A stretch of DNA of 64,000 bases from Dehalococcoidia bacterium (GTDB taxonomy: Bacteria; Chloroflexota; Dehalococcoidia; Lucifugimonadales; Lucifugimonadaceae): assembly GCA_022824185.1 (NCBI GenBank), contig JAJEAU010000016.1:1-64000 (forward strand), in the 5' to 3' direction. The notes under the pieces were generated by a model. The model searched no databases. It saw nothing but the letters and a program-made list of their open reading frames with translations, and was not told the DNA's origin. The position numbers and the translations under genes were made by a program. Numbering within the stretch: position 1 is the first letter of the stretch; each line of letters begins with the position of its first letter. Positions 7,500 to 23,919 of the stretch are shown one piece after another.

Positions 7500-8369
7500 T
7501 CAGCGCGCGGGGATAATGAATCCAACGGTTACGGCGGTACCCGCGTCTCCGTAAGCGAGGATCGAAATTGGTGTTCCGGTGGCGTACAGATCGACTGGGA
7601 TTTGGTATTGGGCCACGAATGCGCCGCTCTCATTTGATCGAGCTGCGTTTTCGAATGGAGGTTCAGGAGATCCTACCGTCAAGAACGAGACGTTTTCTCC
7701 AGGGTGGAACCCTGAACCCAGCAAATCAAACGTGTATACCGAAATGTCCACTATCGTTACGCCACCTTGAGGGTTAGAGACTTCTTGCTCAACCCCAATA
7801 AACTGGCTCTCGATGATTTCAAGTCTGGCGGGATTGGGTGGTTGAGCAGGTCCAGCGGGACCAGGAGGTCCCGTGTCGCCCTGTGGGCCAGGCGGACCGG
7901 ATTCACCTGGTGCACCCTGAGAACCGGGAGGACCCTCTGGGCCAGTTGGGCCAATTGGGCCTTGTTGACCGGTTTCGCCTTGTTCACCGCGCGGCCCTGC
8001 AGATCCTTGCGGGCCAGTAGCGCCGGTGTCGCCTTTCGCACCTTGAGGGCCTTCGGGCCCCTGTGGTCCGACTGGCCCGGTATCGCCTTTGGGGCCAGCA
8101 GGTCCCTGCGCTCCGGGTTCACCGGTGTCGCCTTTTTGACCTGTTGCGCCTTGAGGGCCGATCTCACCTGGATCACCTTTGGGGCCGGCCGGACCGGTTT
8201 CGCCCATTGCGCCGGTTTGCCCTTGCGCACCCGTTTGTCCTGCATCGCCTTCCGAGCCTGAGCAACCGAGGGCAAACAACATAGTCGTCGCACTAGCGAC
8301 GCAGATAACGGCAATCGTGCGGAGTGTCGCCCGTGAAGTATTTGCCTTTGTAAACATCCTGAGGTCCAT
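7500..8369 (-). CDS. Collagen-like lipoprotein
   Basis: A 289-aa exported protein. A signal peptide ends in LFALGCSG, a lipobox with Cys. It is followed by about 135 residues of uninterrupted Gly-X-Y triplets ([20 protein letters not shown] and similar), the collagen triple-helix pattern, then a C-terminal domain of about 110 residues ([17 protein letters not shown] onward) that looks beta-rich. Bacterial collagen-like proteins sit on the cell surface and act in adhesion or as stalks. The start could be Met1 (8369) or Met5 (8357). It is convergent with the amber-split gene. Low-complexity DNA here could be prone to repeat expansion. Confidence 0.9.
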
Positions 8370-8554: not shown

Positions 8555-10240
8555 TCAGGTCGGCAGGAGGCCGTCCTGCGGCGTTGCCCACGGCAGTTTG
8601 GTTGTGAATGTGAATTGGGGAGCACGCGGCATTTTTAGGTCGTGGACGGGGACATCGATGAGGACCGGGGCGTTTAACTCCAGTGCTTTAGGGATGAGCG
8701 TGGCGAGATCATTGGGGTGAGAGGCGCGAAGTCCGATTGCGTTGAAGGATTTGGCGAAGTCGATGAAATCGGGGTTGTGCAGGTCGGTTTCGTAGGTGCC
8801 GTCGAAGACCTCGGCCAAGTCTCGGTCAACGTTTCCATACGAGTCGTTGTTGAATATGACGGTTACGACGTTGATGCCGTATCTGACTGCGGTGGCGAGT
8901 TCGGAGGCGTTGAACATGAAGCCGCCGTCGCCGGTCATGCAGATGACTGGTCGGTCGGGTTGGGCAATCTTGGCTCCCAGCGCGGTGGGGAAAGAGGAGC
9001 CGAGGTTGAAGGCGTATCCTGAGTCGAAGTAGGTCTTGGGTTGATTGACTTTATAGTGGGTTCTGGCGTACCAACCGAACTGGGTGACGTCCCATGAGAT
9101 GAAGGTGTTTTCAGGGATTGCAGCTTGGATGTTCTCGAGGATTTCGTATGGTGGATCGTCTAGCCGTTGATCGTAGTGAGAAATGAGGTTTCGAGCGGCG
9201 GTGACGGCTGCTGCAGGAGATGGTCGGTTTCCGGCTCCGGCTTCGACCAGATATGGGATCAGAGCTTCGATGGTGGCCTTCGCGTCGCCGTGCAATGGCA
9301 CCGTGTTGGACTGAATGCGGGTTAGGTCGCGGTCGTCGATATTGATGTTTATTAGCGTCGACGCTTCGCCAGCCGGGTTGCCAAGTGAGAAGCGTGCGCC
9401 GATGCCTATGACTACGTCAGCGGACTGCATGACCTCGAAGAGTTGGTTCATCGAAGGTTGCTCAGCCATGGGACTGAAGCATGATCCGTATGAGAGAGGA
9501 TGGTTGTCCGGTATGGTTCCCTTGCCGCTGTTGGAAGTTACGACGGGGATGTTTGTCGCCTCGGCCAGATTGACGAGAGCCTTTTCGGCATCGGCAATCG
9601 CTACGCCTCCTCCGGCGTAGATGAGCGGCAGGCGGGCATTTGTGATGATGTCGGCCGCTTCGCGTAGCTGCTCTGGGCTCGGCACGATGCGTGAGATGCG
9701 GGCTGGTTGACGCAGGACCACTTCTTCGCGTTCGACTCCGGTTTCGGGCGGCATTTCAATCAGGACGGGGCGAGGTCGGCCTGTCCGCATCTGCCTGAAA
9801 GCTTCAAATACAGCGTCAGGGACGTCTCTGGGTCTCGTGACTCTCGTGCGCCACTTGGTTACGGGATTGAGCACACTGGCTTGATCGAAGACTTCGTGGA
9901 TGCTTCCGATGTCTTTGTCGATCAAGGCGCGTGGGATTTGGCCCGCGACGAGCAGCACGGGTGAGTTGCGGGCGAATGCGTTTGCGACACCGGATGCGGC
10001 GTTGTAGAGACCGACGCCGGGGACGACTAGTGCGACGCCTGGCTTGCCGGATGCCCGGGCGTAGCCGTCGGCCATGTACGTGGTGGCCTGTTCGTGGCGC
10101 GTCGTGACCATTCGAATGCTTGGCTCGTCGCGCAGTGCAGCAACGATGCCGTAGATCTGGATGCCGGGGATTCCGAACACCACTTCCACGCCCTCGTTGA
10201 CGAGGGATTTGACGAGGGCTTCACCGCCGCTGATCTTCAT
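8555..10240 (-). CDS. Thiamine-diphosphate-dependent enzyme, acetolactate synthase/decarboxylase-like
   Basis: A 561-aa cytoplasmic enzyme with the three-domain plan of the ThDP decarboxylase/acetolactate synthase family. The N-terminal domain has VTTRHEQATTYMADGYAR, which carries the catalytic Glu. A middle Rossmann-like domain covers roughly 190-330. The C-terminal domain has GDGGFMFNASELATAV and a downstream NNDSYGN, the GDG-NN ThDP/Mg motif. Length is normal. It faces the catabolic run starting at 10430 across a 189-bp gap, so it probably acts on a 2-oxo acid or acyl-CoA in the same pathway. Lack of a regulatory subunit nearby argues against biosynthetic IlvB. Exact substrate unknown. Confidence 0.85.
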   Translation of the reverse strand: MKISGGEALVKSLVNEGVEVVFGIPGIQIYGIVAALRDEPSIRMVTTRHEQATTYMADGYARASGKPGVALVVPGVGLYNAASGVANAFARNSPVLLVAGQIPRALIDKDIGSIHEVFDQASVLNPVTKWRTRVTRPRDVPDAVFEAFRQMRTGRPRPVLIEMPPETGVEREEVVLRQPARISRIVPSPEQLREAADIITNARLPLIYAGGGVAIADAEKALVNLAEATNIPVVTSNSGKGTIPDNHPLSYGSCFSPMAEQPSMNQLFEVMQSADVVIGIGARFSLGNPAGEASTLININIDDRDLTRIQSNTVPLHGDAKATIEALIPYLVEAGAGNRPSPAAAVTAARNLISHYDQRLDDPPYEILENIQAAIPENTFISWDVTQFGWYARTHYKVNQPKTYFDSGYAFNLGSSFPTALGAKIAQPDRPVICMTGDGGFMFNASELATAVRYGINVVTVIFNNDSYGNVDRDLAEVFDGTYETDLHNPDFIDFAKSFNAIGLRASHPNDLATLIPKALELNAPVLIDVPVHDLKMPRAPQFTFTTKLPWATPQDGLLPT

Positions 10241-10429
10241 TTTCTGCCCATTCCTTACCGACTAATCTAATGGCATTTAGACGGCATTTAGATTGCGTTT
10301 AGCATTTTATCGGGAGTCGATCAGATCGAGTCGTGGGACCGGTCGAGTATTTTGGATATAGTCATCATTGGCGAAGGGTTAGGTTGCCTTCCGCTGCTTC
10401 CAGTGAGATTGAACCGAGGAGATTGGATT

Positions 10430-10753
10430 ATGAAGCGAGTTGGGTTCTTGATGAAGATCAAGCCAGAGGTGATGGAGGAGTATACGCATCACCACGCGAA
10501 TGTGTGGCCGGACATGCTGGAGGCTCTGCGCAAACACGGGTGGAGGAACTACAGCATCTTCGCCAAGGATGATGGGACGCTGTTCGGGTATGTAGAGGTG
10601 GATGACACGTTTGAGAAGGCGCTGGATGGGATGGCAGGCGAGGAGGTGAATGATCGGTGGCAGGAGTTCATGGCTCCGTATTTCGAGATTCCGGAAGGGG
10701 CTCGGGCTGATCAGATGATGATTGAGTTGACGCAGGTCTTTTACACGGACTGA
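10430..10753 (+). CDS. L-rhamnose mutarotase family protein
   Basis: A 107-aa protein. MKRVGFLMKIKPEVMEEY, a following HHHANVWPDM and the later NYSIF segment match the RhaM/DUF718 family, small dimeric ferredoxin-like enzymes that interconvert sugar anomers. The His near 22 and the Trp/Asp segment are the family's active-site region. The ATG at 10430 is preceded by GAGGAGA. It heads a plus-strand run with the amidohydrolase 23 bp downstream. No rhamnose isomerase or kinase is near, so the substrate may be another sugar or an acid. Confidence 0.85.
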   Translation: MKRVGFLMKIKPEVMEEYTHHHANVWPDMLEALRKHGWRNYSIFAKDDGTLFGYVEVDDTFEKALDGMAGEEVNDRWQEFMAPYFEIPEGARADQMMIELTQVFYTD

Positions 10754-10776
10754 TTGTCCTGAGATTGGAGATTGAG

Positions 10777-11688
10777 ATGGCTCTGCCGCCGTTCATCGAT
10801 ACGCATCACCACCTTTGGGACTTGGAGAACAACCCGTATCCGTGGTTGACGGAGGGTATCGACCACTTTGTGGGTGACTACTCGATATTCCGCCGTACTT
10901 ATCTGATTTCGCATCTGCATGAAGATGCGGAAGGGTTGCCGCTGGTGAAGTCGGTGCATGTTCAGGCGGAGTGGGATCACGAGGCTGATCCGGTTGGTGA
11001 GACGGCTTGGTTGCAGTCGGTGGCGGATTCAGAGGGTTCGCGTGGGATGCCTCATGCGATTGTCGGGTTTGCTGATTTGTCTCAGCCGGACGCGCCGGAT
11101 TTGGTTGCTCGCCACGCGACACATGCGAATTGGCGCGGGATTCGGCACATGTTGAATTGGGCTGAGGATCCGAAGTGGCAGTTCACGGATCGGAACGATT
11201 TGATGACCAATGCTGATTGGCTGAGGGGATATCGGTCGTTGGCGGAGCATGGCGGGTCGTTTGACCTGCAGGTTTGGCCGTGGCAGTTGAAGGATGCGGC
11301 GGATCTGGCGAATCGGATCCCGGAAGTGCCGATTGTGTTGGATCACACTGGTATGCCGCGGGATTGGGATTGTGCTGGCGTCGAGGTGTGGCGCGATGGA
11401 ATGAGGGCTTTAGCGGACACCGAGAATGTGTCGGTGAAGATATCGGCGCTGGGGATGTTTTCGGGAGAGTTTTCGGCGGATCGAATCAAGCAGTGGGTGT
11501 TGGACACGATCGAGATCTTCGGGGTCGACAAGTGCATGTTTGCTTCGAACTACCCGGTGGATATGCTCTTCAGCTCGTATCGTGCGATCTGGGAGGCGTA
11601 TGACGAGATCACGATGGCGGCGGGATTTTCGGATGGTGACCGTGAGAAGCTGTTCAGAACGAACGCCGAAAGGTACTACCGCGTGTGA
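10777..11688 (+). CDS. Amidohydrolase-2 family metal-dependent hydrolase (COG3618-like)
   Basis: A 303-aa TIM-barrel hydrolase. FIDTHHHLWDL near the N-terminus is the first metal-binding HxH segment. VLDHTGMP and KCMFASNYPVDML carry the later His and Asp positions of the 2-pyrone-4,6-dicarboxylate lactonase/fucono-lactonase group. Such enzymes usually open lactones or hydrolyse carboxyl substrates. The ATG at 10777 follows GGAGATTGAG; a TTG at 10765 is possible but overlaps that site. Its partner, a mutarotase-like gene just upstream, suggests a sugar-acid lactone as substrate. Confidence 0.85.
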   Translation: MALPPFIDTHHHLWDLENNPYPWLTEGIDHFVGDYSIFRRTYLISHLHEDAEGLPLVKSVHVQAEWDHEADPVGETAWLQSVADSEGSRGMPHAIVGFADLSQPDAPDLVARHATHANWRGIRHMLNWAEDPKWQFTDRNDLMTNADWLRGYRSLAEHGGSFDLQVWPWQLKDAADLANRIPEVPIVLDHTGMPRDWDCAGVEVWRDGMRALADTENVSVKISALGMFSGEFSADRIKQWVLDTIEIFGVDKCMFASNYPVDMLFSSYRAIWEAYDEITMAAGFSDGDREKLFRTNAERYYRV

Positions 11689-11774
11689 AATCGGCGACAT
11701 GAATTTCGTAATGTTTAAGGCACTATGGCCTGCGCATTGACTTTGAGGCCTTGTTAACGAGGAGAAAGAAACTG

Positions 11775-12074
11775 ATGACGGTTGCACATCTGCGGACATA
11801 CACGATCAACTCTGGGATGATGGATTCTTGGTTGAAGCTTTTCGATGAGACGCTGGTCGATGTGATGGCGGGATTCGGGATGAAGGCGGAGACGGTCTGG
11901 GTGAATGAAGAGGAGTCGCAGTTCATCTGGATCCGATCTTATGGCGAGTCGATGGATGAGCTTGAGGCCAAAGAGGCGGCGTTCTACGGATCCGAGTGGT
12001 GGGAAGAGAACATGCCGCTAGTGCGAGGTCATCTGGCGCACCGCGACATCAAGTTGATCAAGTCGGTGGACTGA
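11775..12074 (+). CDS. NIPSNAP family protein
   Basis: A 99-aa protein with the dimeric alpha/beta barrel pattern of NIPSNAP: HLRTYTINSGMMDSWLKLF, then an EESQFIWIRSY core strand and a basic C-terminus. These small proteins accompany catabolic gene sets, but their role is not established. The ATG at 11775 has AGGAG upstream. It lies in the plus-strand run between the amidohydrolase and the HsdR_N-like gene, which it overlaps slightly. Confidence 0.8.
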   Translation: MTVAHLRTYTINSGMMDSWLKLFDETLVDVMAGFGMKAETVWVNEEESQFIWIRSYGESMDELEAKEAAFYGSEWWEENMPLVRGHLAHRDIKLIKSVD

Positions 12075-12577
12075 CGTCGCCGACTCTTGCCGGCAAGCTA
12101 ATCGCCGAGGTATCGTCGGCGCGGACCGAGCAGTTCGATCTGCTGGGTACGGATAAGAGCGTTTCGCGGACGTTCTTGGTGTTGGTGGTGCCGGTGTTGA
12201 ATCTGCTGGGCTGGCGGGTGAGCCACCCGGAGTTTTGGTTTATTCCGTCGACGATGGATGATGCTGACGCTCGGATGTTGCATTCGCTGAGGTCGTATGC
12301 GGTTCCTGATCGGACGCTGGCGGTCGTTGAGACGCGGGCGTTAGGGACGGATATCGTCGGTGGGATTGAGTTCCATCTTCAACGATGCATCGATAATGGG
12401 GTTGCGATCTTTGCCATCACCGATGGTCGGTACTGGCATCTGTATCCGATTGTCAGCGGGGTTACACCCGGGGCGCCTGCCGCGGAGTGCGATTTGTTCA
12501 GCAACGACGAGCGCGACGTTTCAGCGATGAGTATGCTGGTTTGTCGGACGTCGGCGTTTCAGGACGTCGTTGATTAG
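12071..12577 (+). CDS. Protein resembling the HsdR N-terminal nuclease fold, catalytic Lys absent
   Basis: About 168 aa. FLVLVVPVLNLLGWRVSHPEF, then AVVETRALGTDI, and FAITDGRYWHLYPI follow the layout of type I restriction HsdR N-terminal domains (a GW start, an E-x-K strand, a (T)NGxxWxLY strand). The E-x-K has become E-T-R and no clear upstream catalytic Asp is seen, so it is probably not an active nuclease. No ATG is available. The frame is open from a GTG at 11996 inside the preceding gene; a CTG at 12071 overlaps its TGA. The start is therefore uncertain. It sits in a catabolic run with no other restriction gene. Confidence 0.5.
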   Translation: MTSPTLAGKLIAEVSSARTEQFDLLGTDKSVSRTFLVLVVPVLNLLGWRVSHPEFWFIPSTMDDADARMLHSLRSYAVPDRTLAVVETRALGTDIVGGIEFHLQRCIDNGVAIFAITDGRYWHLYPIVSGVTPGAPAAECDLFSNDERDVSAMSMLVCRTSAFQDVVD

Positions 12578-12605
12578 ACGGATAGTCCGAAGGGAGATAG
12601 AGACG

Positions 12606-13319
12606 ATGGCGAATCTTTCGAATTGCAAGGCTCTGACGTTTGATTTGTTCGGTACGGTTCTGGATCTGGGCGGTAGTCTGACGCCGTTTATCGCGGCGTT
12701 CATCGCGGGGCGCGGCGAGGAGGATCGAGTAGACGCGTCGGCGTTTTGGGCGGAGTTGCGACATCGTCAGCGGATCGAGCAGTATCAGGATTCGCTGGTG
12801 GAGTTGGGGCACACGGGATATCTGGAGACTGCTCAGAAGGCTTTCGTGTATGTTGCGAGGCTGAATGACCTGGATCCGACAGCCGAGGAGGTTGAGGCGT
12901 TTATGGCGGGTTGGCAGGTGTTGAACCCATTCGAGGACTGTCTACCGGGATTGGATCGGCTGGCGGAGAAGTTTGGTTTGGTGGCGCTTTCGAATGGCAA
13001 TCCTTGGTTCTTGGACCATCTCGTTGAGAATCGGATCGGGTTTGATTTCGATGCGGTGATCTCGGTCGAGGTTGCGGGTGCGTTCAAGCCGCATCCGGGG
13101 GTTTATCGGAGCGCGGCTCGGCTGTTGGACAATGAGCCGGGGGAGTTGATTATGGTGTCGTCGAACTCGTTCGACGTGATGGGTGCGAGGACTTGCGGGT
13201 TGAGGGGGATCTATGTGAATCGGTACGGTTTGCCGTTTGAGGACACCGACAAGCGGTATGAGCCTGATTTGACGGTGGCGGATTTTGGCGAGATGGCTGA
13301 TGCGTTGCTCGGGAAATGA
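12606..13319 (+). CDS. HAD hydrolase, (S)-2-haloacid dehalogenase type
   Basis: A 237-aa cytoplasmic enzyme. LTFDLFGTVLDLGG has the nucleophile Asp13. ALSNGNPWFL is motif II, FKPHPGVYR carries the Lys, and SSNSFDVMGARTCGL closely follows the SSNAxDxxGA signature of L-2-haloacid dehalogenases. These enzymes hydrolyse 2-halo acids through an Asp ester. The ATG at 12606 is preceded by AAGGGAGATAG. The FlK-like thioesterase gene follows after 13 bp. The dehalogenase role is likely but many relatives act on other substrates. Confidence 0.85.
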   Translation: MANLSNCKALTFDLFGTVLDLGGSLTPFIAAFIAGRGEEDRVDASAFWAELRHRQRIEQYQDSLVELGHTGYLETAQKAFVYVARLNDLDPTAEEVEAFMAGWQVLNPFEDCLPGLDRLAEKFGLVALSNGNPWFLDHLVENRIGFDFDAVISVEVAGAFKPHPGVYRSAARLLDNEPGELIMVSSNSFDVMGARTCGLRGIYVNRYGLPFEDTDKRYEPDLTVADFGEMADALLGK

Positions 13320-13332
13320 AAGGTGATGCGTC

Positions 13333-13707
13333 GTGGTTGATCTATCAGAGACAGTACGGCCGGGGCTGAGGCACGAGCGGGAGTGGGTAGTCGAGGATTC
13401 GATGCTCTATTCGCCGGGTGGTGATCCTTCGCGGGCCACGTTGTCGAGTCCGTCGATGATCAACGAGTTGGAGACGACGGCGATGCTGGGGTTGGATCAT
13501 CTGCTGCCGGATGGTGGGTTCACGGTTGGATTTCATGTGGACGTGAAGCATGTCGCTCCTGCGCCGCCGGGTGCGAGGATGCGGACGACGGCGGAGCTCC
13601 TAGAGGTGGATGGGACGCGGTTCCGGTTTCACGTGGAGGCGCATGATTTGCACAGCGGTAAGCTGATCGGGATCGGTACGCACCGGCGTGCGGCGATTTT
13701 TCCGTGA
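13333..13707 (+). CDS. FlK-like hotdog thioesterase
   Basis: A 124-aa hotdog-fold protein. MINELETTAML lines up with the segment of fluoroacetyl-CoA thioesterase FlK that carries its catalytic Glu. FHVDVKHVAPAPPGARM matches the catalytic His region, and GIGTHRRAAIF matches the conserved C-terminal GTHxRA segment. These enzymes hydrolyse toxic acyl-CoA esters. The gene starts with GTG at 13333 and lies 13 bp after the haloacid-dehalogenase-type gene; together they suggest handling of a halogenated acid. The exact acyl group is not visible. Confidence 0.75.
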   Translation: MVDLSETVRPGLRHEREWVVEDSMLYSPGGDPSRATLSSPSMINELETTAMLGLDHLLPDGGFTVGFHVDVKHVAPAPPGARMRTTAELLEVDGTRFRFHVEAHDLHSGKLIGIGTHRRAAIFP

Positions 13708-13720
13708 GGTTTGTCGGTGG

Positions 13721-13780
13721 ATGCCGGCCTGCGCCGGGATGTCGTGAGTAGATCCGATGGATTTCGGCCTGCGCCGGAAT
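13721..13780. repeat. Two palindromic repeat units, 40-nt period
   Basis: Two 20-nt units at 13721-13740 and 13761-13780, sharing CGGCCTGCGCCGG with only a few differences. Each is an imperfect inverted repeat, CCGGC/GCCGG-like. They lie between the convergent FlK-like and M50 genes and could end transcription from both sides, though no T tract follows. They resemble dispersed intergenic palindromes. Confidence 0.7.
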
Positions 13781-13816
13781 GACGGGCGGTGGGCAATGTC
13801 GCCGAGGTATGCGCGG

Positions 13817-14968
13817 TCAGGCTTGGTTGGGGCCGGTCGCGGAGTCGGACGTCCATTGATGGGCGTCAGCTAGGTTGGCCTCGGATACGGTGCCCATGAG
13901 GTAGCCGTTTTCGTAGACGAGGAGGATGTCGATGCCGCGTTTGGCGAGAAGCTCTCTTGCAACCGCTAGGTCGGCGTCGGGTTCGATGGCGAATGTGGAT
14001 ACGTGATGTGCAACGTCTGCGACGGTGAGGCCTGAGCCTTGATTCTGGGTTAGGCCGAGGGTTGTCACGTCTCGCATTGAGATCATGCCGGTGACGCTTC
14101 CGTTGGTGATGACTGGGATCGAGACGTCGGGACGGATGGAAAGTACGTTGCGGACGGCTGCGTCGAGAGGAGTGGAGGCGTTGAGGGCTGTTGGGACGGC
14201 GGACATTATTGATCGGACTGGGATGCCTGTGGATCGTTCACCTTGGCGGTCGCGACTTGCCATTTTGGTTTCGGCGGTGGAAGCCGGGAGGATGAACATT
14301 GCGATGACGATGAGCCAGAGGCCGTTTGAGAGGTCGCGGCTCGTGAGCATCATGTAGACGCCGGCGAGGATCAGACCGATGGCGAGGATCTGCCCTGCCC
14401 GTCCGGCCACGCGGGTGGCGAAGTTGCGGTTTCGGGTGAGGACCCAGACTACGGCTTGGAGGACTCGTCCTCCGTCGAGCGGTATTCCTGGGAGCATGTT
14501 GAAGATTGCGAGGGCGATGTTCTGGAGTCCGATGTAGAAGAGGATGCCTTGGAGCATTGCCGCACCGCCGGTGGCGAAGGGATCTCGGTAGATGAAGTAG
14601 AGAAGCGCAGACACAATGCCAATCGCCAGCGACATTGCCGGTCCGGCGGCGGCGATGAGGAAATCGTGAGATGCCTTGGACCGGAGTTCTCGGATCAGGC
14701 TGACGCCGCCGAAGATCATGAGGGTGATCGATGCGACTGAGTAGCCGAGGCGTTTTGCGGTCAGGGAGTGGGCGAGTTCGTGGGCGAGGACCGATATGAA
14801 CAGGCAGATGGTGATGGTGGCCGCGATTATCCACTCTTGCGTCTCGGTTAAGCGGAGGTTGATGAACGGTAGCCCGCCGGATGCGATGATCATCGTGATG
14901 AGGGCGAATCCGATGAGCCACGACCAGTGGACGCGGATGGGGATGTCGAATAGTTCGCCGATGCGCAT
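13817..14968 (-). CDS. Site-2 protease (M50) with C-terminal CBS domains
   Basis: A 383-aa integral membrane protease. HELAH at 63-67 is the zinc site inside a hydrophobic segment. NMLPGIPLDGGRVLQ supplies the third ligand motif (LDG). About five further hydrophobic stretches lie between 15 and 225. The last 130 residues contain two CBS motifs (IMSAVPTALNAST and a VAHHVSTFAIEPD segment), so the protease is probably gated by a nucleotide or similar ligand. Substrates of this group are often membrane-bound anti-sigma factors; none is visible here. A 181-bp gap separates it from the DUF4160 gene. Confidence 0.9.
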   Translation of the reverse strand: MRIGELFDIPIRVHWSWLIGFALITMIIASGGLPFINLRLTETQEWIIAATITICLFISVLAHELAHSLTAKRLGYSVASITLMIFGGVSLIRELRSKASHDFLIAAAGPAMSLAIGIVSALLYFIYRDPFATGGAAMLQGILFYIGLQNIALAIFNMLPGIPLDGGRVLQAVVWVLTRNRNFATRVAGRAGQILAIGLILAGVYMMLTSRDLSNGLWLIVIAMFILPASTAETKMASRDRQGERSTGIPVRSIMSAVPTALNASTPLDAAVRNVLSIRPDVSIPVITNGSVTGMISMRDVTTLGLTQNQGSGLTVADVAHHVSTFAIEPDADLAVARELLAKRGIDILLVYENGYLMGTVSEANLADAHQWTSDSATGPNQA

Positions 14969-15769: not shown

Positions 15770-16735
15770 ATGCCAGCCATCGAATCCTTCGACACCACGA
15801 TCGCAGCCGCGCGCCGCGCTGGCGTGCGGTTTGATGATGCGCGTGCGCCATCGACTCATCGGATCGAGCATGATGATGGGTTTGAGTTGAACTTCATCGA
15901 CTGGGGCGATGAGACGGGTCAGAAGCCGACGATCATCTTCATCCATGGGTTTCTTCAGCAGGCCCGGACTTGGGATTTCACGTGTTTGGCGCTGCGGTCC
16001 AGGTTTCGGTGCATATCGCTGGATTTGAGGGGGCATGGGGATAGCGGGAGGCCGAAAGGTCCGGACTATACGACGCATTACTATCAGTCTGATCTGCGGC
16101 GGTTGATTGACCACATGACGCGGGAGATGGGGATCGATCGGTTTGGGCTTTGTGGGTTGTCTCTTGGAGGGCATCAGTCTTACATCTACGCTTCAGAGCA
16201 TCCGGAGGTTGTGGATGCGGTCGTGGTTGTGGATGTTGCGCCGGAGACGAATCGGCAGGCTAGTCGGGGGATCAATCGGTATATTTCTGCGCTTCCTAAG
16301 GACGGACCGTTTGAGGATCTAGTCGAAAAGGTAGCTAAGATGAGTCCGATGCGGAACCGCGATGCGGTCAGGGGTTCGTTGTTGCGGGCGACGAGGGTTA
16401 AGAAGGACGGCGGTTGGGAGTGGAAGCATGATCCGCGATTGCTCGAACATCATCGTCCGAGTTACACGTCGGACGAGTATTGGGCCGCGTTGGGGAAGGT
16501 AGTGTCGCCGACGCTGTTTGTGCTGGGCAAGAATTCGAAGTTGGTGACGTCGGACACGGTTCGGCGGATGGTTGAGTTGGTGCCGGGGAGTTCGGCGAGT
16601 TACGTTCCGAACGCTAGCCACCGAGTTCCGGGGGATAATCCAGTTGGGTTTATTCAGGCTGTCAAGCCATTTCTGGAGCGTTACGTGGTCGAGAAGATCG
16701 TAGAAGGTGACAACGTCAACCAAGCGCCGACCTAA
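15770..16735 (+). CDS. Alpha/beta hydrolase
   Basis: A 321-aa enzyme with the alpha/beta hydrolase fold. IIFIHGFLQQARTW is the oxyanion-hole HG segment, SLDLRGHGDSGRP follows, GLSLGGHQSY is the nucleophile elbow with Ser, and NASHRVPGDNP carries the catalytic His. The usual acid strand reads FVLGKNSKLVT, where an Asp would normally be, so the acid may sit elsewhere. It overlaps the first MFS gene by 29 bp, implying cotranscription; the carrier may import the hydrolase's substrate. Confidence 0.85.
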   Translation: MPAIESFDTTIAAARRAGVRFDDARAPSTHRIEHDDGFELNFIDWGDETGQKPTIIFIHGFLQQARTWDFTCLALRSRFRCISLDLRGHGDSGRPKGPDYTTHYYQSDLRRLIDHMTREMGIDRFGLCGLSLGGHQSYIYASEHPEVVDAVVVVDVAPETNRQASRGINRYISALPKDGPFEDLVEKVAKMSPMRNRDAVRGSLLRATRVKKDGGWEWKHDPRLLEHHRPSYTSDEYWAALGKVVSPTLFVLGKNSKLVTSDTVRRMVELVPGSSASYVPNASHRVPGDNPVGFIQAVKPFLERYVVEKIVEGDNVNQAPT

Positions 16736-18044
16736 GGTTTTCTACGGATGGTGGATCGTCATCGGGAGCGGGACGGTCCAGTTTTTCACCTCCGCGGTTT
16801 TTTGGCGCGGGTTTCAGGCTTATGTTGATCCGGTTCTTCGTGCGTTCCCGGGATGGGGATCGGGCGTGTTTGGGACTGCGATGGCAATCCAGCGAGCCGA
16901 GAGTTCGCTGATAACGCCGTTCGTCGGGGCGGCGATAGATCGTTTCGGGCCCAGGCCGGTGTTGGCTTTCGGAGCGTTTACGACGGGTTGCGGTTTCATT
17001 CTCATGAGCCAGGTGCAGGAGTTGTGGCATTTCTACGCGGTGATGCTCGTGTTGGGGATCGGGTTGTCGTTTGGGGAGTTCATCGTGTTTGTGGCGACGG
17101 TGGTGAACTGGTTCGTGCGATATCGGTCTAGTGCGCTTGCGGCTTTCATGACGTTTTCGGCGATGGGGGCGGTAGCGTTGCCGTTGCTTGTCTGGTTGAT
17201 CTCGACGTTTGGTTGGCGGACGGTGATGGTCGGCGTTGGGATCGGGTTTTGGGTGATCGCTGTCCCGGCTGTGTTGTTGTTGCGCCGTCGACCCGAAGAC
17301 TACGGGATGCGACCAGACGGAGATGGTGAGCCTCCCGGTTCGATGGTGGATCCCGGTCGTGGTTCGCTCCGGCGACCGCCCGAGGTATCGATCGGCATTC
17401 GGGAGGTGTTGCGTCTCCGGGCATTTTGGCAGATCGTCATTGCCGTGAGCATTGGCGAGGTGGTTGCGATGTCGAATCTGTATCACCTCCCGGCGCTGCT
17501 CGAGTATGAGGTGGATCTCTGGTTGGCATCGGTCGCTGCGGGTGCTGTTGCGATCGGCGATGTGTCGGGGCGTGTAATCGTCGGGTTGATCGGAGATCGT
17601 TTCAGGTTGAAGAATCTCTTGGCGACTGCCCTCTGGATTCAGGCCGTGGGGGTGACGTCGCTGGTGCTCATCAACTCCGACATTTTGGGTGTGAGTTGGG
17701 GTCTCGTTCCGATGCCTCTGTTTGTGCTGTGTTCGGGTTTGGGATTTGGCGCGTCGATACCGCTTCGGCTCGCGATTCTTGCGGATTACTTCGGGAGGCG
17801 GAGCTATGGGACGCTCGTTGGGACGGCGAGTTCGATCAGTTCGTTGTCGGTGACCTGCGGATTGTTGTTCATAGGATTCATGTCAGATTTCACAGATTCC
17901 TACAGGCCGGGCTACATGGTTTTGGCGGTTCTGCTGTTGCCGGCGGTGCCGCTAACTTTGCTACTCGAGTCGCCGCGCCGGGTTGCTGCGAAGGTTCGAC
18001 AGACGGCGCGCATGAGAATGAGACGATTAGCATTACGGCAGTGA
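16707..18044 (+). CDS. MFS transporter, oxalate/formate- or monocarboxylate-type, paralogue 1
   Basis: A 445-aa inner-membrane carrier with 12 predicted segments. The N-terminus KVFYGWWIVIGSGTVQFF and the AVFWRGFQAY and GMRPDG segments are shared with the carrier at 19572. The FYGWW opening is typical of OFA/MCT-like MFS proteins that move carboxylates. GTG at 16707 is the only start between an upstream stop and the conserved FYGWW. It overlaps the hydrolase gene. Two further MFS genes follow in the same orientation. Confidence 0.85.
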   Translation: MTTSTKRRPKVFYGWWIVIGSGTVQFFTSAVFWRGFQAYVDPVLRAFPGWGSGVFGTAMAIQRAESSLITPFVGAAIDRFGPRPVLAFGAFTTGCGFILMSQVQELWHFYAVMLVLGIGLSFGEFIVFVATVVNWFVRYRSSALAAFMTFSAMGAVALPLLVWLISTFGWRTVMVGVGIGFWVIAVPAVLLLRRRPEDYGMRPDGDGEPPGSMVDPGRGSLRRPPEVSIGIREVLRLRAFWQIVIAVSIGEVVAMSNLYHLPALLEYEVDLWLASVAAGAVAIGDVSGRVIVGLIGDRFRLKNLLATALWIQAVGVTSLVLINSDILGVSWGLVPMPLFVLCSGLGFGASIPLRLAILADYFGRRSYGTLVGTASSISSLSVTCGLLFIGFMSDFTDSYRPGYMVLAVLLLPAVPLTLLLESPRRVAAKVRQTARMRMRRLALRQ

Positions 18045-18054
18045 AGCATTTTCA

Positions 18055-19428
18055 TTGCGAAAATTGAATTCCTCCAAGACCACATCACCGCCCGAACCGG
18101 AGTCAACCACAACCGGGACGGTCGCAACCAAACCTAAGCGCTTCTACGGATGGTGGATACTGGTCGGCGCCGCTGCGCTCTCATTCGTTGCAGCCTTGGC
18201 GTCTCTAGATGAATTAGCGTCCTTTAGCGAGGCCATAACGGATTCGCTCCTCGAAGCCGATCCTCTCAATCGCGTTGCCAGCTACGGGTCCATCCTCGCC
18301 ACTTTGGTCGCGGGATTGGTCATCGCCCCAGTTGTCGGATTTTTGCTCGATCGATACGACCCGCGGCCCGTGACGCTGTTCTGTGTCCTGGTTGCCGGCA
18401 CCATGCTTCTTCTGATCACCCTAGTTCAAAATGATCTGCAAATGCACGCCGCGTTGTGGATCATCAGGGCCAGTATCTTTTCAATCACAAGTGTCGTCTT
18501 GGTGGTCACGCTCGGCAAATGGTTTGTTCGTAGTCGCGTTCTGGCGTTTGCAATCATTTGGGCATGTCCAGTTTTCGCATCGATGTTTTACCGTGACACG
18601 ATTTTCGTTATCGACGAATTCGGATGGCAAACCACGACGATCGTTGCTGGTGTCACGTTCTTGATAGTTGGGATCCCGGTCGCTCTGATGATGCGCCGCC
18701 AACCCGAAGACAATGCCCTACTTCCTGGCGGTGCCAGAGAGAAAGGAGATCACCACAATCGTCTGCGCCCAGAAATCTTTGCCACCGCACGTTCAGCCAT
18801 TCGAATCCCCGCGTTCTGGCAAATCGCGTTGGCCATCGGCTTGGTCCCTGTAGCATTGACCGCGCAGCCGCACGATATCAGTAACGTCGTCGGCATATAC
18901 CTCGTGCGATTGTTCGACATATTGCGTATCTCGTTCTTGGCATTGTTTCTGGCCACAGCTGGGATCGTAGCCGTCGGGTTCATCAGCCTGCGCCTTGACA
19001 AAAGGGTTGTGCTCTTAGCGTCCTTCGCCTCAGCGATTGTCATATACGCCGCGTCCATCGTTAGCCACATGGTTGATGGCTTTTCCTATGGATTACCGGT
19101 GTTTTTTGTCTTATATGTCATCAGTTTCGTCGCTCAGCCGGCAATTGTGTTCATTCCGTTCGCGCTCCTTGCCGACCTTCTTGGCCGACGCAACTATGGC
19201 GTTGTCCTCGGAATGACAATTGCCGTCCATACTGCCGTAACATATCTCTTCCGCAGCTTGCCCTTCTACATGAGCGAAATCGGAGGTGGCGAACTCGCGC
19301 AATTCGGTCTGGGAATGACTGCGTTATTGATCGCCGCAATCCTCGTTTTGAAAGTGGAACCGCAATCTCGAGTCGCGGCCAGAATCCGACTTCTGAATCG
19401 TCGGCAAAAACGTCGCCTCACGCCGTGA
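18055..19428 (+). CDS. MFS transporter, divergent paralogue 2
   Basis: A 457-aa, 12-segment membrane protein that also opens with RFYGWWILVGAAALSF after a hydrophilic tail, and has the RRQPEDNALLPGG loop equivalent to RRPEDYGMLPDG in its neighbours. Otherwise it is much less similar to the flanking paralogues, and its codons favour C-ending triplets more than theirs. The start is TTG (18055 or 18064), 11-20 bp after the previous stop. A separate origin of the middle gene is an inference from the composition. Confidence 0.8.
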   Translation: MRKLNSSKTTSPPEPESTTTGTVATKPKRFYGWWILVGAAALSFVAALASLDELASFSEAITDSLLEADPLNRVASYGSILATLVAGLVIAPVVGFLLDRYDPRPVTLFCVLVAGTMLLLITLVQNDLQMHAALWIIRASIFSITSVVLVVTLGKWFVRSRVLAFAIIWACPVFASMFYRDTIFVIDEFGWQTTTIVAGVTFLIVGIPVALMMRRQPEDNALLPGGAREKGDHHNRLRPEIFATARSAIRIPAFWQIALAIGLVPVALTAQPHDISNVVGIYLVRLFDILRISFLALFLATAGIVAVGFISLRLDKRVVLLASFASAIVIYAASIVSHMVDGFSYGLPVFFVLYVISFVAQPAIVFIPFALLADLLGRRNYGVVLGMTIAVHTAVTYLFRSLPFYMSEIGGGELAQFGLGMTALLIAAILVLKVEPQSRVAARIRLLNRRQKRRLTP

Positions 19429-19571
19429 CGTCCCCTCAATTTGCCGCCAAACCGCATCCATTCACGTGATTCCCGCATCATCCGCGAGATATCCTAACTC
19501 GCGCATCAGGGGTAGCTGCTGTTCCATCGAACGCGCCCTGGACTTCGTTCTGAAAGAGATTCTCGGGAGCC

Positions 19572-20912
19572 ATCGTTTCGCCTAAAAATTCTCCAACCAA
19601 GATCTTTTACGGATGGTGGATCGTTTTTGGCGGCGGATTCATGCAGTTCTACACGTCTGCGGTGTTTTGGCGTGGCTTCCAGGCGTTTGTCGAACCGATC
19701 CTGAGTACGTTCACGGGCTGGAGCTCGGGTGCGTTTGCGGCTGCGATCTCTTTGCAGCGGGGCGAAAGCGGGTTGATATCTCCGTTCGTGGGGGTCATGC
19801 TGGACCGATTTGGTCCGAAACGGGTGATGTTCTTCGGGATTGCCGTGACTGGCGCTGGGTTTGTGATGATGAGCCAGATGCAGACACTGTGGCATTTTTA
19901 CGCCGCGATACTGCTGCTCTCGCTGGGGATGTCGTTTGGGACCTTCATCGTGTTTGTGGCGACGGTAGGGAATTGGTTCGTGCGTCGACGTGCGAAGGCG
20001 TTGTCGATGCTGATGACGTTTTCCGCGGTGGGGGCGTTTGTGTTGCCGTTGATCGTATGGTTGATTGAGGTTTTCGGTTGGCGAGCGGTGTTGCTTTGGA
20101 TTGGTGTCGGGTTTTGGGTATTCGGGTTGCCAGTCGCGTTGATGATGCGTCGGCGGCCCGAGGACTACGGGATGCTGCCGGACGGTGAGGCGGATGTGGA
20201 TGCAGGCTCGTCGGCCGGTGAAGGCGGGAGGTATCGACGTCGGGTGCGGGAGGTTTCGATTGGTGTGCGCGAGGTGCCGAGGCTTAGGGCGTTTTGGCAG
20301 TTGGCGATTGCGGTGAGTCTGGCTCAGCTGGTGAGTTCGACGAACCTGTTTCACCTGCCAGCGTTGCTGGAGTACGACTTGGGCATCTGGCTAGCGTCGA
20401 CTGCGGCAGGTGCGGTTGCGATTGGGGATATCTTGGGACGTGTGAGCATCGGGTTTATCGGGGATCGGTTCGACAAGCGGTTGATTCTGACGTTGGCGTT
20501 TTTGATTCAGATGGCGGGGGTCGGTGCACTGGCGATGATCAACTCGGACTACTTCGGGGTTTCGTGGGGACTGATTCCCTTGCCAGTGTTTGTGCTTGGG
20601 TTTGGGTTGGGTTTTGGCGCGTCGATTCCGCTGAGATTGGCGATATTGGCGGACTATTTCGGAAGACGGAGTTACGGATCGGTGGTTGGCATCGCAAGTT
20701 CGGTGAGTGCGATATTTGGTGTGGCGGGTCCGTTGTTTGTTGGGTTCATGTATGACTTCACGGATTCATACAGGCCTGGGTATGCAGTGATGGCCTTGAT
20801 GCTTTTGCCCGCTTTGCCGCTGACGATGACGCTGGAGTCGCAAGCCCGGGTTGCTGCCAAGGTGCGGCAGGCTACCAGGAGTCGCGTCCGGGGTTTGGCG
20901 ACGGGGCGTTGA
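19572..20912 (+). CDS. MFS transporter, paralogue 3, no canonical start codon
   Basis: Very similar to the carrier at 16707: FYGWWIVFGGGFMQFYTSAVFWRGFQAF and RRRPEDYGMLPDG segments, 12 hydrophobic stretches. The conserved N-terminus lies upstream of the first ATG (19641). Between the in-frame TGA at 19551 and the FYGWW codons there is no ATG, GTG or TTG. The only plausible start is ATC at 19572, just after a GGGAG, which gives the paralogue's length of N-terminal tail. Starting at 19641 would cut into the first membrane helix. Either a rare ATC start or a damaged start codon is implied. Confidence 0.75.
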   Translation: MVSPKNSPTKIFYGWWIVFGGGFMQFYTSAVFWRGFQAFVEPILSTFTGWSSGAFAAAISLQRGESGLISPFVGVMLDRFGPKRVMFFGIAVTGAGFVMMSQMQTLWHFYAAILLLSLGMSFGTFIVFVATVGNWFVRRRAKALSMLMTFSAVGAFVLPLIVWLIEVFGWRAVLLWIGVGFWVFGLPVALMMRRRPEDYGMLPDGEADVDAGSSAGEGGRYRRRVREVSIGVREVPRLRAFWQLAIAVSLAQLVSSTNLFHLPALLEYDLGIWLASTAAGAVAIGDILGRVSIGFIGDRFDKRLILTLAFLIQMAGVGALAMINSDYFGVSWGLIPLPVFVLGFGLGFGASIPLRLAILADYFGRRSYGSVVGIASSVSAIFGVAGPLFVGFMYDFTDSYRPGYAVMALMLLPALPLTMTLESQARVAAKVRQATRSRVRGLATGR

Positions 20913-21018: not shown

Positions 21019-22209
21019 ATGCCGGGCAACATAATTCTTCCACAATGGGGCATGGGTATGAACGAAGGGCAAGTGGTTCGGTGGCTAAAAACCGTGGGCG
21101 ATCCTGTGGTGAAGGGTGAGCCGTTGGTTGAGATCGAATCGACCAAGGTGAGTGCGGAGGTCGAAGCGACGGCGGACGGAACGTTGGGTCGGATCATGGT
21201 TGAAGAGGGAAAGACGGTTCCGGTAGGTACGGTATTGGGGATGTTGCTGATGGCTGGTGAGAGTGATACCGATCTTCCGGAGGAAGAGGCGCCAAAGGAG
21301 CGCAGATCGAGGAATGGTGCTGCGACTCGTCGGGCGGCGCGTGCAGGTAGGTCCGGTGGCCGACTCGTTGTGACTCCGAGGGCACGACGTTTGGCAAGGG
21401 AGTTGGATGTTGATTTGGACAGCATCACCGAAGGATCTGGTCCGAGCGGTCGCGTGACAGAGGATGATGTTCGGGCCGCTGCGGGCGGTGGTACTGCGGG
21501 ATCTGATGACGCGATGTCTGTGAGCAGAACGATTCCGCTGACTGGGATGCGTGGCACGATCGCCAAGAGGATGTCGGCGAGCGCTTCAGCGGCGCTGGTT
21601 ACGCTGAACACGACGGGCGATGTCACGGAGGCTGTGGCTATGCAGCGTAGATTGACGCGCGAGTGGCGTCGGAGTCGGGTCAGGCCGCAGTATCAGGACC
21701 TCGCGATAGCGGCGACGGTCAAGGCGCTCGGGGACCATCCGTTGGCGAATGCGCATATTACCGATACCGAGGTCAAGATTTACGACACGGTCAATCTTGG
21801 ATTTGCGCTTGCGGTGCCTGATGGGTTGGTGGTGCCCGTTATCCGGGACGCCGAGACGAAGTCGCCATTGGAACTTGCGATGGCGGTTCGGGATTTGGTC
21901 AGGAAGTCGAAGTCAAATGAGTTGCGCGTTGCCGAGTTGACGGGCAGCACGTTCTCGCTGACCAATCTGTCGACTTACGACGTAGAGAACTTCACGCCGT
22001 TGATCAATCCGCCAGAAGTCGGGATTTTGGGTGTTGGACGAGTTGTTGAGCAGCCTGCCGTTTCGAAGTCGGGTGAGATTGAGGTGCGGTCGGTAGGGTA
22101 CTTCTCGTTGACGTTTGACCACCGTGCTTGGGATGGTGCTCCGGCGGCGGAGTTCCTGCAGTCGGTGGTTAAGAATTTGGGTGAGCCTGGTTGGATGGCG
22201 GGGGGATAG
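21019..22209 (+). CDS. Dihydrolipoamide acyltransferase (E2) of a 2-oxo acid dehydrogenase complex
   Basis: A 396-aa protein with three domains. The N-terminal lipoyl domain carries Lys43 in EIESTKVSAEVEA. The peripheral subunit-binding domain (about 113-153) has VTPRARRLARELDVDL and GPSGRVTEDDV. The catalytic domain begins about 175 with PLTGMRGTIAKRM and ends with DHRAWDGAPAAEF, the His/Asp active site. The enzyme passes acyl groups to CoA. No E1 or E3 gene lies nearby, so partners must be elsewhere. It uses ATG at 21019 and is followed after 7 bp by the GNAT genes. Confidence 0.9.
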   Translation: MPGNIILPQWGMGMNEGQVVRWLKTVGDPVVKGEPLVEIESTKVSAEVEATADGTLGRIMVEEGKTVPVGTVLGMLLMAGESDTDLPEEEAPKERRSRNGAATRRAARAGRSGGRLVVTPRARRLARELDVDLDSITEGSGPSGRVTEDDVRAAAGGGTAGSDDAMSVSRTIPLTGMRGTIAKRMSASASAALVTLNTTGDVTEAVAMQRRLTREWRRSRVRPQYQDLAIAATVKALGDHPLANAHITDTEVKIYDTVNLGFALAVPDGLVVPVIRDAETKSPLELAMAVRDLVRKSKSNELRVAELTGSTFSLTNLSTYDVENFTPLINPPEVGILGVGRVVEQPAVSKSGEIEVRSVGYFSLTFDHRAWDGAPAAEFLQSVVKNLGEPGWMAGG

Positions 22210-22216
22210 CTAGGCA

Positions 22217-22786
22217 ATGGACGAGCCGATCGTAATCCGGACCGAGCGGCTCTTGCTTCGGCCATTCGAGATTGAGGATGCCGAAGATGTTCTCGCTTAC
22301 GCGAGTGATGTGGAATGGTCTCGGTTTTTGCCGATGCCGGATCCCTACACGATTAAGGATGCGAAGGAGTTCGTGACCAAGCGGACGTTAGGTGGGCGTG
22401 GCAATCGGCTGAGTTTCGCGATCGAGTTCGAAGGTTCAGTTGTCGGTTGTATCGAGGTGGGGCATGAGGTGCTGATTTCGGTTGCGTCGATCCATTACGC
22501 GATTGCGCGTCGGTGTTGGAATAAGGGGTTGACGACGGAGGCGGCGCGTGCGGTTGTGGATTGGGGATTCGAGGAACTGGAGTTGGCGAAGGTCTATTCT
22601 TGGGCGGATGTCGAGAATGTCGCGTCATGGCGAGTGATGGAGAAGATTGGCATGACGCTGGAGGGCACTTTGCGAAGTCAGGGGGTCAATCGCGGCGTGC
22701 GTCAGGATTATCACTACTACGGCATTTTGCGGAGTGAATGGGAGAGCGAACCTGGTTACGCAGGCCGAGGAATGGCGGAGGGATAG
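22217..22786 (+). CDS. GNAT acetyltransferase, RimJ/RimL-like, tandem copy 1
   Basis: A 189-aa acetyltransferase. IRTERLLLRPFEIEDAEDVLAY is the N-terminal signature. The acetyl-CoA binding part includes ARRCWNKGLTTEAARAVVDWGF, and SWRVMEKIGMTLEGTLR is the family's end motif. The ATG at 22217 is 7 bp after the E2 gene. It is the first of three tandem homologues of nearly equal length. RimJ/RimL relatives acetylate protein N-termini or small amines; the substrate cannot be told. Confidence 0.9.
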   Translation: MDEPIVIRTERLLLRPFEIEDAEDVLAYASDVEWSRFLPMPDPYTIKDAKEFVTKRTLGGRGNRLSFAIEFEGSVVGCIEVGHEVLISVASIHYAIARRCWNKGLTTEAARAVVDWGFEELELAKVYSWADVENVASWRVMEKIGMTLEGTLRSQGVNRGVRQDYHYYGILRSEWESEPGYAGRGMAEG

Positions 22787-22793
22787 CGGCTTC

Positions 22794-23363
22794 GTGACCG
22801 TTCCGACGACGCTACGTACCCGACGTTTAGTGTTGCGTCCATTCGAGCCCAATGACGTCGAGGACGTGCTCGCCTACGCGAACGATCCGGAGTGGTCCCG
22901 CTTCCTGTCTGTGCCGAGGCCGTACTCCATTGAGGATGCCCGCGAGTTCGTCGATCGCAGCGTATCGATCGATTGGCAGGAGGAACCGGCTTTCGCGATC
23001 GAGTATGACGGGGCAGTTGTCGGTGGCATTGGTTTCCACATCGATTCACCGAATTCCAGGGGAATGTTGGCTTATTCGATAGCGCGCGCTTACTGGAACC
23101 AAGGGCTGATGACCGAAGCTGCGGCGGCCGTTGTCGATTGGGGCTTTGACCAACTCGGATTGGCTAAGATCTACTCCTTCGCCGATGTCGAAAATGTCGG
23201 CTCTTGGCGCGTGATGGAGAAAGTCGGCATGACGCGTGAGGGCACATTGCGTAGCCACGGTCTATTGAGGGGCGTGCGTCAGGATTTTCACTCCTACGGC
23301 ATTTTGCGGAGTGAGTGGGCCGGCGACTTTGATCCTCCACCCCAGCGGGTAACTGCGGGATAG
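22794..23363 (+). CDS. GNAT acetyltransferase, tandem copy 2
   Basis: A 189-aa homologue of its neighbours: TLRTRRLVLRPFEPNDVEDVLAY, ARAYWNQGLMTEAAAAVVDWGF and SWRVMEKVGMTREGTLR. GTG at 22794 is chosen because it gives the same N-terminus as the two sister genes and has GGAGGG about 10 nt upstream. A longer frame from 22734 would run far into copy 1. The central region between the conserved blocks is the most different part, suggesting a changed substrate. Confidence 0.88.
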   Translation: MTVPTTLRTRRLVLRPFEPNDVEDVLAYANDPEWSRFLSVPRPYSIEDAREFVDRSVSIDWQEEPAFAIEYDGAVVGGIGFHIDSPNSRGMLAYSIARAYWNQGLMTEAAAAVVDWGFDQLGLAKIYSFADVENVGSWRVMEKVGMTREGTLRSHGLLRGVRQDFHSYGILRSEWAGDFDPPPQRVTAG

Positions 23364-23370
23364 TGCCTCT

Positions 23371-23919
23371 ATGACTCCTCCTACGACGCTACATACCCGA
23401 CGATTAGTGTTGCGGCCATTCACGATTGAGGATGTGAACGATGTCTTCGAATACGCGTCAGATACCGAATGGTCGAGGTTTGTTCCGGTCGCGAGTCCCT
23501 ACACCATTAAGGATGCGGAAGAGTTCGTGACTCGTCAGATGTTGAAGCGTTGGGATGAAAAACCCAGGTTTGCGGTTGAGCTCAATGGCGTCGTTGTTGG
23601 CAGCGTCAAGTTGACGATCGAAAAATCGCTCGAGATCGCATCGTTGCGATACTCGATCTCTCGTCCGTGCTGGAACCAAGGATTGACGACCGAGGCCGTG
23701 GCGGCTGTGGTGGATTGGGGGTTCGATGATATTGGACTGCAGAAGGTCTATGCTCGGATGGACGTTGAGAACATCGGGTCTTGGCGTGTGATGGAGAAGA
23801 TCGGCATGATCCGCGAAGGGACGTTGCGAAGTCACGGCGTCAATCGAGGGGTCCGTTACGACATCCATTACTACGGCATTTTGCGGAGTGAGTGGGAGAA
23901 GCGCCGTGATTTGATTTAA
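23371..23919 (+). CDS. GNAT acetyltransferase, tandem copy 3
   Basis: A 182-aa homologue: TLHTRRLVLRPFTIEDVNDVFEY, SRPCWNQGLTTEAVAAVVDWGF and SWRVMEKIGMIREGTLR. The ATG at 23371 is 7 bp after copy 2. All three copies keep the acetyl-CoA binding segment and the C-terminal RxDxHxYGILRSEW-like end (copy 2 reads QDFHSYGILRSEW), so all may be active. The spacing indicates a single operon from the E2 gene onward. Confidence 0.9.
   Translation: MTPPTTLHTRRLVLRPFTIEDVNDVFEYASDTEWSRFVPVASPYTIKDAEEFVTRQMLKRWDEKPRFAVELNGVVVGSVKLTIEKSLEIASLRYSISRPCWNQGLTTEAVAAVVDWGFDDIGLQKVYARMDVENIGSWRVMEKIGMIREGTLRSHGVNRGVRYDIHYYGILRSEWEKRRDLI

Follow-up and report, generated by a model that had tools for sequence, protein, structure and literature searches.

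A dehalogenase-type hydrolase and an FlK-family thioesterase side by side in a SAR202 genome: probably parts of neighboring modules and not a dehalogenation island

The window analyzed here is a stretch of 64000 bases, the first part of contig C15 of a 2.54 Mb genome from the marine SAR202/Dehalococcoidia. Between positions 8555 and 13707 it contains a gene for a haloacid dehalogenase type II enzyme (HAD) followed closely by a gene for a thioesterase of the family of FlK, the fluoroacetyl-CoA thioesterase. An earlier note on this DNA had read these genes and their neighbors as an island for the breakdown of a halogenated or toxic acid, with protection against its CoA ester. Our analyses indicate that the locus is probably not a dehalogenation island and consists instead of three neighboring modules (for sugar, 2-oxoacid and acyl-thioester metabolism) that have come to adjoin one another, mostly by chance, in a single lineage.

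The evidence comes from the gene neighborhoods of relatives. The HAD loci compared are the best 80 of 214 confirmed relatives from a contig search, and all counts out of 80 rest on this set. The full set of mutarotase, lactonase, NIPSNAP, HAD and thioesterase genes is present in five of the 80 loci, all from close relatives, with HADs 78–92% identical to that of the window. None of the other 75 loci contains a homologue of FlK, the mutarotase (RhaM), the lactonase or NIPSNAP at E ≤ 0.01, and 72 of these 75 loci have at least 800 bp of sequence downstream of HAD. As the full set is confined to five close relatives, the proposed pathway is refuted as a conserved unit; in relatives, HAD, FlK and the mutarotase/lactonase pair each have other usual partners. 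Thus, the gene-level claims of the earlier note stand, but the joint halogenated-acid pathway probably does not. The genes are as follows.

8555–10240, minus strand: thiamine diphosphate (ThDP)-dependent, acetolactate-synthase-like enzyme (nearest NCBIfam family PRK08266, 529.5 bits, cut-off 571)
10430–10753, plus strand: L-rhamnose mutarotase (RhaM) family protein (PF05336, 101.3 bits; TIGR02625, 76.8 bits, below the cut-off of 99.6)
10777–11688, plus strand: lactonase-type hydrolase of the Amidohydro_2 family (nearest named family L-fucono-1,5-lactonase, 97.7 bits, cut-off 400)
about 11775–12074, plus strand: small NIPSNAP-family protein (PF07978, 26.1 bits, cut-off 22.3)
12092–12577, plus strand: additional conserved open reading frame of ~160 codons without a clear ATG, between NIPSNAP and HAD
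12606–13319, plus strand: haloacid dehalogenase type II, HAD (TIGR01428, 126.3 bits, cut-off 125.4)
13333–13707, plus strand: FlK-family hotdog thioesterase (PF22636, 81.1 bits, gathering cut-off 27)
13817–14968, minus strand: M50 site-2-protease-like peptidase with a CBS domain
21019–22209, plus strand: dihydrolipoamide acyltransferase (E2), the usual operon partner of HAD in SAR202

The closest relatives of the window HAD are labeled Dehalococcoidia, SAR202 or Chloroflexi, and the genome is placed in SAR202/Dehalococcoidia on the strength of these labels. In 33 of the 80 loci HAD lies in a pyruvate-dehydrogenase-type context, with an E1β gene within 1.5 kb upstream and/or an E2 gene within 4 kb downstream. 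The gene order is E1α–E1β–HAD–E2–(NAD-kinase-like), in which the NAD-kinase-like gene is typical; gyrB, a name read directly from the sequence without a family search, is often nearby. In loci L008–L044 and L068, HAD is found between E1β and E2, often together with a lipoprotein-like gene that has no Pfam match and the NAD-kinase-like gene. A further 22 loci, all labeled Poribacteria, have a Gfo/Idh/MocA oxidoreductase gene directly upstream of HAD instead; they fall within L049–L082 and keep the order sulfotransferase–Gfo/Idh/MocA–HAD, a second conserved context for this enzyme. HAD relatives that are 56–63% identical, on contigs labeled Poribacteria and Planctomycetaceae, occur in different neighborhoods. 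The result listings of a literature search showed no earlier report of an operon combining HAD with pyruvate dehydrogenase genes, although one may exist.

In the HAD tree, a single clade (100/99) unites the six window-type HADs and is sister to 20 operon HADs (96/75); both groups lie inside a clade of 33 rows (25 operon, six window-type and two other HADs). The genome has its own E1α and E1β genes near gyrB at C15:97215–99237, on the same contig beyond the window, followed by Fur-like and CDF genes and no HAD; this E1β is 79% identical to that of L008. The genome's own E2 gene (in the list above) is separated from them. Because the window HAD nests in the operon clade while the E1 genes lack a HAD and E2 stands apart, the simplest reading of these sequences is that HAD left a pyruvate-dehydrogenase-type operon in the lineage of the window, so that the second module would descend from the E1α–E1β–HAD–E2–NAD-kinase-like arrangement. 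Separately, loci L029, L038 and L040 are on contigs labeled Proteobacteria, although their HADs nest among those of Chloroflexota (L029 with the order gyrB–E1–HAD), which may reflect either a binning error or transfer.

To compare its active site, HAD was aligned with L-DEX YL, a member of the same fold family whose sequence was verified against PDB entry 1jud. All ten of the residues that we take to be catalytic in L-2-haloacid dehalogenases (in L-DEX numbering Asp10, Thr14, Arg41, Ser118, Asn119, Lys151, Tyr157, Ser175, Asn177 and Asp180) are present, as Asp13, Thr17, Arg52, Ser129, Asn130, Lys161, Tyr167, Ser185, Asn187 and Asp190, respectively, in an enzyme that passes the TIGR01428 cut-off narrowly. 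The positions of Asp10, Thr14 and Arg41 are kept in 79 of the 80 relatives (one row has a gap), those of Ser118, Asn119, Lys151, Tyr157 and Asp180 in all 80, that of Ser175 in 77 and that of Asn177 in 76. HAD differs from L-DEX YL in four substitutions (Tyr12 to Phe, Phe60 to Tyr, Trp179 to Phe and Leu45 to Ile) and in its usual SAR202 gene neighbors, which are 2-oxoacid dehydrogenase genes. HAD phosphatases have an Asp two residues after the nucleophile; the window HAD has a Phe. Because of this Phe and the complete catalytic set, dehalogenase-type chemistry, as the earlier note had suggested for HAD, is well supported by the sequence. Arg52 would hold a 2-substituted carboxylic acid, Asp13 would attack its C2 and water would free the 2-hydroxyacid; these steps, like those given for the other modules below, are the mechanisms of the respective enzyme families.

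The same active site could nevertheless act in the cell on a 2-substituted acid without a halogen, such as an epoxy acid, a cyclic amino acid or another compound, and deliver a 2-hydroxyacid close to the 2-oxoacid dehydrogenase complex. We regard this as a serious possibility, though somewhat less likely than not; it concerns HAD only and is compatible with the three-module reading. Among the PDB matches of HAD, epoxide and cis-epoxysuccinate hydrolases tie with the best haloacid dehalogenase at ~75 bits each, L-azetidine-2-carboxylate hydrolase is also a neighbor, and conservation of HAD in a pyruvate-dehydrogenase-type operon suggests a substrate from central metabolism and not a pollutant. 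On the other hand, the L-2-haloacid dehalogenase set is fully kept and, at the Asn177 position, the 76 relatives noted above have Asn where the aligned epoxide hydrolases have His.

In the thioesterase, Ser39, Glu47, Gly66, His73 and Arg119 correspond to FlK Thr42, Glu50, Gly69, His76 and Arg120, of which we take Thr42, Glu50 and His76 to be the catalytic residues; the Glu/His pair on which the earlier comparison with FlK turned is therefore present, as Glu47 and His73. The Glu50, Gly69, His76 and Arg120 positions are kept in the window protein and in all 34 aligned relatives, and at the Thr42 position the window protein shows a conservative change to Ser (Ser in 8 of the 34 relatives, Thr in 26). 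However, the segment containing the lid residues Phe33 and Phe36 is missing from the window protein and from all 34 aligned relatives. This lid is linked to the fluorine selectivity of FlK. As the segment is missing, specificity for fluoroacetyl-CoA is not expected from the sequence.

An AlphaFold2 model of the thioesterase (predicted local distance difference test score, pLDDT, of 95.2) matches the hotdog fold of FlK from Streptomyces cattleya (3kv7 and 3p2q) with Z scores of 16.8–17.7 and root-mean-square deviations of 2.2–2.4 over 114–116 aligned residues; titles of PDB entries among the structural matches name the F36A mutant of FlK. Foldseek puts FlK first, but the thioesterase-like proteins 2q78, 3qoo and 2cwz, which have no stated function, tie structurally with the FlK chains. 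The structure search was therefore non-discriminating and was rejected as a test of fluoroacetyl specificity. The window protein also differs from FlK in that it is not encoded beside fluorometabolite genes. The third module would thus comprise an FlK-fold thioesterase that hydrolyzes some short acyl thioester via Ser39, Glu47 and His73, without fluoroacetyl-CoA specificity. Directly after its gene, at 13717–13790, the GC-rich motif ggcctgcgccgg occurs in two near-copies and is possibly a dispersed palindromic repeat.

FlK genes, like those for HAD, have their own settings in relatives. In all three other genomes of the same family that have FlK (G086, G107 and G114), a gene for a FabI-type enoyl-ACP reductase stands immediately 5′ of it (the FabI family was tested on the G086 protein, and the G107 and G114 proteins are its homologues). 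M50 and MFS genes lie beyond FlK in all three, the M50 gene being separated by another gene in one of them. The window's genome has its own fabI (80% identical) on another contig, C17. Outside the family, no HAD was found near FlK within the stretches fetched (19 loci). In an order-wide sample of 118 genomes, with HAD orthologues defined by scores of 200 bits or more, FlK is present in 51 genomes, a HAD orthologue in 44 and both in 29. The two genes are adjacent in only one of these 29, the window's own genome; in 23 of the other 28 they are on different contigs, and in the remaining five they share a contig, ~33 kb apart at the closest (G094).

The first module is formed by the mutarotase and the lactonase, the latter presumably a member of COG3618. 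In the order-wide sample, a lactonase homologue (E ≤ 1e-40) was found in 31 genomes and a RhaM homologue (E ≤ 1e-8) in 38; a distance of no more than 5 kb separates the two in 14 of those 31 genomes, among them the window's own. The order RhaM–SDR–lactonase was observed in six of the 14 loci that were fetched, which represent 12 of the linked genomes (without G000 and G056) plus G074 and G107, both lacking the linkage. Positions 10430–11688 are most likely concerned with non-phosphorylative degradation of a deoxysugar of the rhamnose or fucose type: the mutarotase would interconvert sugar anomers, a dehydrogenase encoded elsewhere would make the lactone, and the fuconolactonase-like lactonase would then open it. 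In the portion of their report available to us, Lim et al. 2023 (PMC10444878) propose non-phosphorylative L-rhamnose and L-fucose pathways for SAR202, name COG3618 as one of the SAR202 paralog sets to which they assign the breakdown of sugars and lactones, and describe stimulation of SAR202 growth by rhamnose, fucose and their lactones. The window resembles those pathways, as far as that portion describes them, in that the lactonase family adjoins a mutarotase (with mutarotase–SDR–lactonase in related loci), and differs in that the pair has no dehydrogenase, dehydratase or aldolase with it.

Several observations weigh against a division into three modules. The lactonases of the RhaM–SDR–lactonase loci are only ~32–35% identical to that of the window, the lactonase and mutarotase score under their NCBIfam equivalog cut-offs, and no sugar dehydrogenase, dehydratase or aldolase is present among the genes of 8555–13707. 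Outside the window's family FlK has varied neighbors, not fabI. The genome encodes a CrcB fluoride exporter, but on another contig, and CrcB is present in 10 of 14 control genomes. Finally, each of the lineage's six genomes has HAD next to FlK, with 13 to 28 bp between them; the two may be cotranscribed, so that they could have gained a joint role. The adjacency is weak counter-evidence because these genomes also share the flanking genes. It would also be expected of a newly formed lineage operon in which HAD and FlK act jointly in short-chain acyl and 2-hydroxyacid metabolism, with no halogens involved; members of the lineage retain the close spacing and shared orientation of the two genes, and E2 lies 7.7 kb downstream, which agrees with such an operon. 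We consider it unlikely, as most of the surrounding genes are likewise conserved and the linkage of HAD to FlK therefore carries little information.

Still less probable, in our view, is an operon for a halogenated or toxic 2-substituted acid, in which HAD would strip the halogen and the FlK-like enzyme would hydrolyze the toxic CoA ester. The complete catalytic set of HAD, the catalytic residues of the thioesterase and the 13 bp between the two genes (a short gap kept in relatives) are all consistent with it, and a cluster of like logic exists in Caballeronia sp. S22, where the available part of the report describes a natural cluster of fluoroacetate dehalogenase, FlK, aconitate methyltransferase and CrcB (PMC11812338). 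The two loci share a dehalogenase gene near an FlK-family gene; however, the Caballeronia locus, as described there, includes aconitate methyltransferase and CrcB, whereas here CrcB is on another contig and the lid residues of FlK are missing. The restriction of the HAD–FlK adjacency to one lineage, with other partners in relatives, and the missing Phe33/Phe36 segment also argue against such an operon. A fluoride-response context was considered and set aside for want of local support, since the window gave no Rfam match at or above threshold and CrcB lies elsewhere.

Family searches confirmed the ThDP enzyme, mutarotase, lactonase, NIPSNAP, HAD and FlK-family genes at the coordinates that had been assigned to them, and the coordinates confirm the 13 bp gap; the gene run had been described correctly for these genes but incompletely, as the open reading frame ending at 12577 had been overlooked. 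It is 75–83% identical in all five close relatives and has no meaningful Pfam match, its single hit falling far under the cut-off. A restriction-enzyme N-terminal domain in its middle was suggested by resemblance by eye only, and Pfam gave no support. The ThDP enzyme is left out of the gene group because its gene recurs in one of the five close relatives (L003), and because the homologue near a sugar module in L152, which might have made it a member, is assigned to a different subfamily (PRK06154, 688.7 bits) and is only 29% identical to it. Elsewhere in the window, a lipoprotein-like protein that has long runs of collagen-like Gly-X-Y repeats is encoded at 7500–8369, a tandem of three MFS-type transporter genes at 16707–20912, and a tandem of three related acetyltransferase-like genes at 22217–23919.

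The apparent dehalogenation island is thus unsupported, and its genes are reassigned to their usual partners. The part worth following is the conserved dehalogenase-type HAD in the pyruvate-dehydrogenase-type operon of SAR202, which raises the question of why many SAR202 have retained, beside E1 and E2 genes of 2-oxoacid dehydrogenases, a protein whose haloacid-dehalogenase active site is intact. One tentative answer, to which we give a rather low probability, is that SAR202 vertically inherit a dehalogenase-type hydrolase as a standing part of this operon, where it would convert 2-haloacids or a natural 2-substituted acid to 2-hydroxyacids near the point of entry to acetyl-CoA. If that is true, the central metabolism of an extensive marine clade would include the removal of organohalogen acids or their use as food.

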